Of a stretch of DNA of 32,980 bases, positions 24,299-26,259 are shown in pieces (position 1 is the stretch's first letter; the number at the start of each line of letters is the position of its first letter). The notes beneath the pieces are model-generated. The model did no database searches. It saw nothing but the letters and a program-made list of their open reading frames with translations, and was not told the DNA's origin. Made by a program: the position numbers and the translations under genes. This stretch comes from Desulfurococcaceae archaeon (lineage in GTDB: Archaea > Thermoproteota > Thermoprotei_A > Sulfolobales > Desulfurococcaceae). The stretch spans positions 1 to 32,980 of the forward strand of contig JAJHQS010000013.1 in NCBI GenBank assembly GCA_020833225.1, read 5' to 3'.

Positions 24299-25111
24299 TT
24301 ACTCATTTACTAATACTAATAAATAATCTCCCTGTTTTACTTTTAACTTTTCAGCTGCATTATCCATATTTATCGCTATCTCTAAGTAACCCCATGAGTT
24401 CAAGTAGCATGCGTATTCGCCTATAGGTACTTTGCTAAAGGATGTTTCATAAGTACATATAGTGCTCTTTGAGTTTAATGATATAGTTAACTTTGAACCT
24501 AATTGTATTCTTAGCACGTTTAACTCTTTCTCCGTGATATTGGTCATTATGTTGCCAAATACGTCAATGTAGAGTACTTGGCCTCTAATACTCCTATTTT
24601 CTAAGTTTACTATGGGTTTCTCAATCACTATTTTAACTACGTTGTCATAGCTTATTTCAATTCCAATATCTTCTATTGATATGCCTCTACTAATCCAGGC
24701 AGCCACGGGTGCAAAGATGTCTCTACCATGGAATGTATGTGAGACTATTGGTAATTTATATTTAGTATTAGATATGTCAAATACTCGTTTAACCCTGTCT
24801 TGATCAGCTAATATTGTGAGGCAACCGTTATCAGGCCCTATTAGAATATAGTTTGTTGTCTCAATTACTAATGCTCTCCTAGTACTGCCAACACCAGGAT
24901 CAACTATAACTACAAATATTGTTCCTGATGGGAAATACTTAGCTGATACAGCAAGCATAATTGCTGCTTCGAGTACATTATGCCTCTCAATACCATGAGT
25001 TAAATCAATAACTTCTACATCAGGATTAATACTCTTAATAACACCCTTTAAAACTCCAACATATGGGTCTTTATAACCATAATCAGTCATAAGAGCAATA
25101 ATCCTCTTCAT
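24299..25111 (-). CDS. SAM hydroxide adenosyltransferase (DUF62 family)
   Basis: 270-residue protein of the fluorinase-like DUF62 family. N-terminal signature: MKRIIALMTDYGYKDPYVG with the SAM-binding Asp (D10). Then IDLTHGIERHNVLEAA, the VVIVDPGVGSTRR loop, ILIGPDNGCLT, SHTFHGRDIFAPVAA and a C-terminal domain with YIDVFGNIMTNI. Characterised archaeal members hydrolyse S-adenosylmethionine to adenosine and methionine using hydroxide. That is the expected reaction here. ATG start at 25111 with GGGGAGATT-like sequence just upstream on the minus strand. It is a single-gene unit lying between two sRNA loci. Confidence 0.93.
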   Translation of the reverse strand: MKRIIALMTDYGYKDPYVGVLKGVIKSINPDVEVIDLTHGIERHNVLEAAIMLAVSAKYFPSGTIFVVIVDPGVGSTRRALVIETTNYILIGPDNGCLTILADQDRVKRVFDISNTKYKLPIVSHTFHGRDIFAPVAAWISRGISIEDIGIEISYDNVVKIVIEKPIVNLENRSIRGQVLYIDVFGNIMTNITEKELNVLRIQLGSKLTISLNSKSTICTYETSFSKVPIGEYACYLNSWGYLEIAINMDNAAEKLKVKQGDYLLVLVNE

Positions 25112-25165
25112 AATAATCTCCCCTAGTTGAATATAAGAGCCTCATTTAAATTATAGTTTAAATGG

Positions 25166-25227
25166 GCCGGGGATGTAGGCGACGGGCGGTCTGAGATGTG
25201 ATGACTAAGTATACTAGTTAACCCGGC
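25166..25227 (+). ncRNA. C/D-type sRNA with predicted 16S C1402 guide; terminal boxes degenerate
   Basis: A terminal stem GCCGGG (25166-25171)/CCCGGC (25222-25227) encloses a C-like box GATGTAG (25172-25178) and a 12-nt guide GCGACGGGCGGT (25179-25190). A perfect D' CTGA (25191-25194), a perfect C' GTGATGA (25198-25204) and a D-like CTAG (25214-25217) follow. The 12-nt guide is the exact complement of the universal 16S segment ACCGCCCGUCGC. Counting five from D' gives C1402 (E. coli numbering), which is 2'-O-methylated in bacteria (RsmI) and in yeast (snR70 site). Two TTTAAAT boxes upstream (25145-25163) can act as promoter. The 16S gene is not in the window; the target sequence is recalled knowledge. 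Confidence 0.75.
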
Positions 25228-25233
25228 TTAAAT

Positions 25234-25275
25234 CCCGATGAAGATCAGCGGATAATCTGCTTGGTGATGATCGGG
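25234..25275 (+). ncRNA. Structured element with kink-turn-like loop downstream of the sRNA
   Basis: CCCGAT (25234-25239) pairs with ATCGGG (25270-25275). Inside, AGCGG pairs with CTGCT around an ATAAT loop, and the asymmetric internal loop contains GATGAAGA opposite GGTGATGA, GA-rich sequences that resemble a kink-turn bound by L7Ae. The pieces GATGA, CTGC (25257-25260), GTGATGA (25264-25270) and ATGA (25280-25283) could alternatively be the boxes of a second, degenerate C/D sRNA. No ACA box is present. It starts only 7 nt after the preceding sRNA stem, so the two may be one dual transcript. Confidence 0.4.
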
Positions 25276-25353
25276 CTCAATGAGAGGGTTTTTAACTATG
25301 CTATTTAATCTCTACTCTTACATAGTTCACGTGGAGTATGTTGTGATGTTGTT

Positions 25354-26259
25354 ATGAGTTCTCTAGTGGGCTCTAGAAGTTTGTTAAATAATGTGTGGTA
25401 TTTCTCGAAGAGTGGATTTAAGAAGGGCTTTGTTTTTCTCTATGGTAGTAGAGTTATGGATGATGGTGAAGAGCCTCTCCCAGAATATGAGCTCTCAGAG
25501 TTAGTAATGGATTTTGAAGGTAAGGCGTTAATTATTCATGGTTATAGTTTACTAGTAGATGTTGTAGAATATGTGTTTAGGGGTTTTCAGAGCAGGGTGG
25601 ATCTAAGTGTACTCACTAGGAATGAAATTAAGAAGTTAGCTGAAGTAGGCCTTGTAAATGCATATATTAGTGGTGTTACATTGCCAATAGCTTATACTAG
25701 GCATATTGAAGCCCTCGTAGATGCTGCTAGAGAGAATAGTATGAGAGTTGGTGTATTAGCTGATAGAGGTACTGTAACTAGTAACCCATTTCTCTTAGTC
25801 TTCGAAATTGATGATGGTAGAGTATATTTTGAGGATAAAGTACTTGGCAGTGTAGATAATGTTATATGTACTCCTCAGAGAGCTATGAGTAACTGTATAT
25901 TCATAGATGCGAGAGGCTATGGTAACACTCTCACAGCTATAGAAGAGACGTTTAGAAGCATAAGGGCTGTGAGAGATGCATATGAAGTTTTAACAAAACC
26001 TTATAAAATCACTGGCTTAGATGAAGGCTACGTGGAAAAAGGCTGTGTCTCAGATATAATAGTATATGACTTGAGAAATCCACTTAGAACATCTCTACAT
26101 GAGAGAGAAGAACACCTCTACACTATTATAGCTAGGTCACAACAACCAGACATAGTATTCATTGGTGGAGACATATTCTACGAGTTTGGAGAAAACCTCG
26201 CAATACCAATTACTAGAGTAGACAATGTTCTAGTAAAATTAAAAGAGGAATTAGATTAA
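25354..26259 (+). CDS. Amidohydrolase-like protein without the N-terminal metal motif
   Basis: 301 residues. The C-terminal part, YEVLTKPYKITGLDEGYVEKGCVSDIIVYDL, follows the usual end of amidohydrolase-superfamily enzymes (G-x-I-x-x-G-x-x-A-D-I-V-V-x-D). The middle could be a reduced TIM barrel (SGVTLPIAYTRHIEALVDAARENSMRVGVLAD). The N-terminal HxH metal motif that should follow the first beta-sandwich is absent (FEGKALIIHGYSLL has a single His), and the protein is about 100 residues shorter than typical members. It therefore looks like a divergent, probably metal-free paralogue. Start ATG 25354; no classical ribosome-binding motif. It stands between the sRNA locus and tRNA-Ile. Family assignment rests mainly on the C-terminus. 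Confidence 0.5.
   Translation: MSSLVGSRSLLNNVWYFSKSGFKKGFVFLYGSRVMDDGEEPLPEYELSELVMDFEGKALIIHGYSLLVDVVEYVFRGFQSRVDLSVLTRNEIKKLAEVGLVNAYISGVTLPIAYTRHIEALVDAARENSMRVGVLADRGTVTSNPFLLVFEIDDGRVYFEDKVLGSVDNVICTPQRAMSNCIFIDARGYGNTLTAIEETFRSIRAVRDAYEVLTKPYKITGLDEGYVEKGCVSDIIVYDLRNPLRTSLHEREEHLYTIIARSQQPDIVFIGGDIFYEFGENLAIPITRVDNVLVKLKEELD

Follow-up and report, generated by a model that had tools for sequence, protein, structure and literature searches.

The gene for a small RNA at positions 25166–25227 (+) of the window, the whole 32,980-nucleotide stretch of Desulfurococcaceae DNA, has inner boxes of regular box C/D sequence and outer boxes that depart from it, and poses the question of what this RNA guides and whether its two ends still form a working motif. 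We consider it likely, from comparative sequence analysis, that the gene encodes a guide for 2′-O-methylation of 16S rRNA nucleotide C1402 with a nonstandard terminal k-turn, derived from an order-wide dual guide and now acting as a single guide in the genus of the window.

Gene layout and the probable guide to 16S C1402

The gene lies between two divergently oriented ORFs (24299–25111 on the minus strand and 25354–26259 on the plus strand) in an assembly that totals 1.47 Mb across 84 contigs, and its locus is syntenic across the window's genus. Read 5′ to 3′, it is ordered GCCGGG-GAT-GTAGG-CGACGGGCGGT-CTGA-GAT-GTGATGA-CTAAGTATACTAG-TTAA-CCCGGC. The arms GCCGGG (25166–25171, +) and CCCGGC (25222–25227, +) pair in the 6-bp GC stem named in the original prediction. 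The internal pair, there called perfect, is so: box D′ CTGA (25191–25194, +) and box C′ GTGATGA (25198–25204, +), separated by a GAT k-loop spacer read from the sequence (25195–25197, +), follow the CUGA/RUGAUGA consensus. The outer boxes ATGTAGG and TTAA do not follow the RUGAUGA/CUGA consensus, and we therefore class the sRNA as a variant rather than as a standard box C/D member. Rfam returned nothing over cut-off at 25166–25227, a strict C/D pattern found no match in the window's assembly while a looser one, which requires GATGA, would by design pass over other genus sRNAs lacking A at 2b, and the folding energy of the sRNA alone is unremarkable (z −1.32). A TATA-like, AT-rich TTTAAATTATAG at 25145–25156 (+), about 10–21 nt 5′ of the sRNA, was noted by eye as a weak candidate promoter from which the gene might be transcribed.

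A second C/D-like sRNA, outside the present finding, follows in tandem at 25234–25288 (+), starting 6 nt 3′ of the C1402 guide, and the two may form a dicistronic transcript; a T-run 3′ of both (25289–25293, +), likewise picked out by eye, is a possible terminator. This neighbor bears a weak likeness, below cut-off, to Rfam sR14/sR41, and its box D′ is CTGC in the window and CTGA in the relatives read. A search for an rRNA target of its D′ guide gave no clear one. Relatives in the same genus share the tandem arrangement, which inspection by eye also showed in G017 and G018.

Directly upstream of box D′ lies the 12-nt D′ guide GCGACGGGCGGT (25179–25190, +), which, as predicted, is the exact complement of 16S 1398–1409 and, being complementary to rRNA at this position, has the defining property of a box C/D sRNA guide. 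The 16S sequence was read in four same-genus genomes, the window's own assembly having no 16S match. The fifth nucleotide upstream of D′, G25186, faces C1402 (E. coli numbering). In all 14 genomes in which the guide was paired with 16S the duplex is unbroken over 1399–1408, G·U allowed, with a G·U at 1405 in some of the pairings. In one family of the order (f6; f2 and f11 are others, and f1 is the family of the window) 16 of 16 guides have A at a position occupied by G in most other homologues, and this A fits the U1400 seen in both of the f6 16S genes read. Outside f6 the same guide A is limited to two of 29 f2 members, neither of them among the genomes paired with a 16S, and the other 71 homologues lack it. 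The guide RNA thus appears to follow a rare change of its target, and this guide–target covariation at U1400 is, on sequence grounds, the strongest evidence for selection on the pairing. Taken together, the D′ guide very probably targets C1402, and we predict the RNA to be a methylation guide that would direct fibrillarin to 2′-O-methylate this nucleotide, with the internal D′/C′ pair as a standard k-loop for L7Ae.

A fully canonical second guide for C1402, named in the original prediction as grounds for giving it up, was sought in the window's assembly at one mismatch and did not turn up. Three further observations concern the same 16S region. In the f6 genomes G056 and G046 (L261, L265), U1400 breaks the universal 1392–1406 primer site. 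Another sRNA family of the genus (L122, L129, L132, L141, L142) has a D guide that looks complementary to 16S 1406–1413, by eye overlapping the C1402 target. Finally, the 16S match of L267 (G005) spans 2002 bases and probably holds an insert or intron of some 500 bases.

The nucleotide addressed belongs to the decoding center and is also the target of bacterial proteins and of a yeast snoRNA, the latter presumably snR70. Fibrillarin, which together with L7Ae and Nop5 is expected on a box C/D sRNA, is encoded in the window's assembly (E 1.2e-102), in which the RsmI model TIGR00096 gave no hit; among 41 relatives it scored over cut-off in none, with weak sub-cut-off hits in four. Bacteria, by contrast, make m4Cm1402 with the proteins RsmH and RsmI, as described in sections of PMC7694415. 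We hold it very probable, judging from these genomes, that the archaeal order uses one guide RNA instead. The main text of the seven-species survey PMC4644070 mentions neither 1402 nor 1389, the position its own numbering would suggest, and the parts covered of PMC4644070, PMC7994747, PMC7897474 and PMC7694415 describe no archaeal C1402 guide.

Homologues across the order and their box quality

A pattern of guide, D′ and C′ matched three of 41 relatives and its reversed control none, so the match lies beyond chance. In a named sequence collection, 67 stretches matched the pattern, 24 of them archaeal by title; a D guide to 16S A1236 accompanies 20 of these 24, whereas all 43 bacterial matches lack it. 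Across the order, a model built from 28 homologues, with matches counted at E ≤ 0.01, found the sRNA in 142 of 214 genomes, including 37 of the 40 listed genomes of f1, and it also matched four genomes from elsewhere in the class; the window's assembly has a single match. Comparison across the order, suggested at the outset as a check, therefore supports the C1402 assignment, as does the shift of the guide with U1400 in f6. We read 116 homologues from the 142 matched genomes, leaving out 26 weak or partial ones, and the f1 counts below cover 35 of the 37 matched members (G022 and G098 left out).

Box D′ is CTGA in 35/35 f1, 29/29 f2 and 2/16 f11 homologues, and box C′ retains TGATGA in 34/35 of f1. 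Box D, anchored on the stem, is CTGA in 0/35 f1 members. In f2, f6 and f11 the stems are short and stem-anchored calls of box D are sometimes wrong, so for counts between families box D was instead placed at a constant distance from the D guide; there it is CTGA in 0/27 f1, 29/29 f2 and 14/15 f11 members. Good inner and poor outer boxes are thus a trait of the whole f1 family as sampled, and f11 mirrors it. Because two families show opposite box quality, the homologues offer a natural test of which C/D sRNP motif carries the load and of how far a k-turn may degrade.

The putative terminal k-turn and its stem

The terminal motif was read in k-turn register, that is, as a stem, three bulged bases and the pairs 1b·1n and 2b·2n. 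In this register GAT (25172–25174, +) is the bulge L1–L3, the box C equivalent is ATGTAGG (25173–25179, +) with G25175 at 1b and T25176 at 2b, and the box D equivalent is TTAA (25218–25221, +), abutting the 3′ stem arm, with A25221 at 1n and A25220 at 2n. The outer boxes given in the original prediction, GATGTAG and CTAG, were therefore misplaced, the second (25214–25217) lying one box upstream. An intermediate reading, a flush outer stem that had lost its bulge, came from taking GATG as the start of the G·A pairs and was dropped, since GAT as bulge gives an ordinary k-turn register with the same stem; by eye this register suits further sRNAs of the genus as well. For G099 the register differed between two analyses.

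Throughout f1 the bulge is kept (35/35; GAT in 34, AAT in one), as are G at 1b (35/35) and A at 1n (35/35, partly by construction, as only 3′ stems preceded by A were searched). The pair 2b·2n varies: it is T·A in 16, G·A in eight, G·G in four, A·A and T·T in two each, and G·T, A·G and C·G in one each, with A at 2b in only three of the 35. Measured against a standard k-turn, the C-stem (GCCGGG/CCCGGC) and the 3-nt bulge are there, and of the tandem G·A and A·G pairs the first, G1b·A1n, occurs in 35/35 and the second, A2b·G2n, in 1/35. Inverted box quality, as originally described, therefore holds for the whole family at the level of the boxes, yet the outer motif keeps its k-turn features except for the second sheared pair, and the weakness of its boxes would come down to a single k-turn base-pair position that has been substituted.

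The stem itself is under evident constraint. On 16 sequences 99% of cells are paired and four of the six pairs are changed on both sides (GGG/CCC versus CCC/GGG), the covariation score is 0.397 against 0.063 in shuffles, and sliding the stem arms lowers every pairing measure. Pairing of the outer stem in f1 exceeds a cross-genus mispair control at positions 1–15 of 16 (position 8, for example, is paired in 28/35 members versus 0.47 in the control). Contiguous stems run to 5–16 bp in 33/35 f1 members, the other two having 3 bp and then a mismatch, and the mean length is 8.9 bp in f1, 3.7 bp in f2 and 3.1 bp in f11. We infer that the longer, GC-rich stem probably compensates for the lost 2b·2n pair, a suggestion that rests on few independent events, as long stems and odd 2b·2n pairs share one clade.

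Passages of PMC5061560 state that nonstandard k-turns differ most often at 2b·2n, that L7Ae binding induces the fold of box C/D k-turns, and that A2b joins the hydrogen bonds by which k-turn classes are defined. The nonstandard simple k-turns treated there, Kt-23 and SAM-I G2nA, are likewise substituted at 2b·2n with G·A kept at 1b·1n, whereas f1 changes both 2b and 2n in most members (T·A in 16/35) and does so within a C/D sRNA. Compared with an archaeal box C/D dual guide, the RNA of the window has the same size, four-box order, 5-nt rule, k-loop D′/C′ and terminal stem with 3-nt bulge, but lacks A·G at 2b·2n, has TTAA for box D and shows one recognizable target. According to parts of the review PMC7994747, L7Ae binds only where a terminal stem, a box C uridine and two sheared G·A pairs are present; here both the stem and the uridine persist, but at most one sheared pair does, so L7Ae might fail to bind the terminal motif. 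Parts of PMC8413462 describe the archaeal C′/D′ motif as also essential. In the explanation we favor, the terminal C/D would still be a nonstandard k-turn that keeps stem, 3-nt bulge, L3 uridine and G1b·A1n, with A·G at 2b·2n replaced (by T and A in the window), and it would be retained because archaeal sRNPs need both motifs. More tentatively, and with the odds somewhat against it, the terminal k-turns of Desulfurococcaceae could form a new class, with U-A or G·A in place of the second sheared pair and the long stem stabilizing the motif instead, the L7Ae-bound core shifting inward and the hierarchy of motifs being reversed, with f11 the opposite case.

The second guide and other readings

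The ancestor would have been the order-wide dual guide, addressing C1402 by D′ and A1236 by D. All 27 f1 members outside the window's genus retain the D guide to A1236 and none of the eight inside it does, and in the window the former D guide CTAAGTATACTAG (25205–25217, +) has no complementarity to A1236 and no rRNA target above chance. Four genus members still carry the A1236 target string GCTACAATGG intact in their 16S, so the loss lies on the guide side, and in this genus the RNA would act as a single guide.

The permuted or circular sRNA put forward in the original prediction, read here as one with the internal D′/C′ as sole working core and the outer ends merely a clamp, appears improbable and is both unsupported and unneeded. 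Inner boxes are indeed canonical and outer ones not in 35/35 f1 members, and archaeal circular C/D sRNAs do exist (documented in parts of PMC7994747), yet the order stem-C-guide-D′-C′-guide-D-stem is the ordinary one in 116/116 homologues read. A plain clamp, moreover, would not need the 3-nt bulge, G1b and A1n that all of f1 retains, nor does a dispensable outer motif agree with co-varying stem pairs, and the A1236 guide kept outside the genus indicates that the outer half still works there.

Decay of the gene, by which the genus would be losing its function with the D guide going first, accounts for the absence of that guide in 8/8 genus members but not for the retention of stem, bulge, D′ guide, D′ and C′ in the same eight, nor for the synteny of the locus, and we regard it as very unlikely. 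A chaperone that holds distant parts of 16S together through pairing at 1398–1409 and in the 1230s, rather than a methylation guide, is just as hard to credit: the ancestral RNA pairs with two such segments and parts of PMC4644070 propose roles of this kind for these sRNAs, but of these two contacts the genus retains only that at 1398–1409, boxes D′ and C′ persist, and the 5-nt rule points to a nucleotide that bacteria methylate (sections of PMC7694415).

The single C1402 guide remains our preferred reading for the window, and a new rRNA target for its D region was tried and rejected, 95 of 200 shuffles scoring as well or better against the G004 16S locus. The D region of G007 matches 16S near 1353–1363, scoring 10.5 points against the G004 locus, a value that six of 200 shuffles attained, and 11 points against its own 16S locus. 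Judged by this complementarity, some members of the genus may have acquired a new target for the D guide. The D region TTGTTGACGCG complementary to 16S near 1353–1363 is found in L007 (G007) and L009 (G002).
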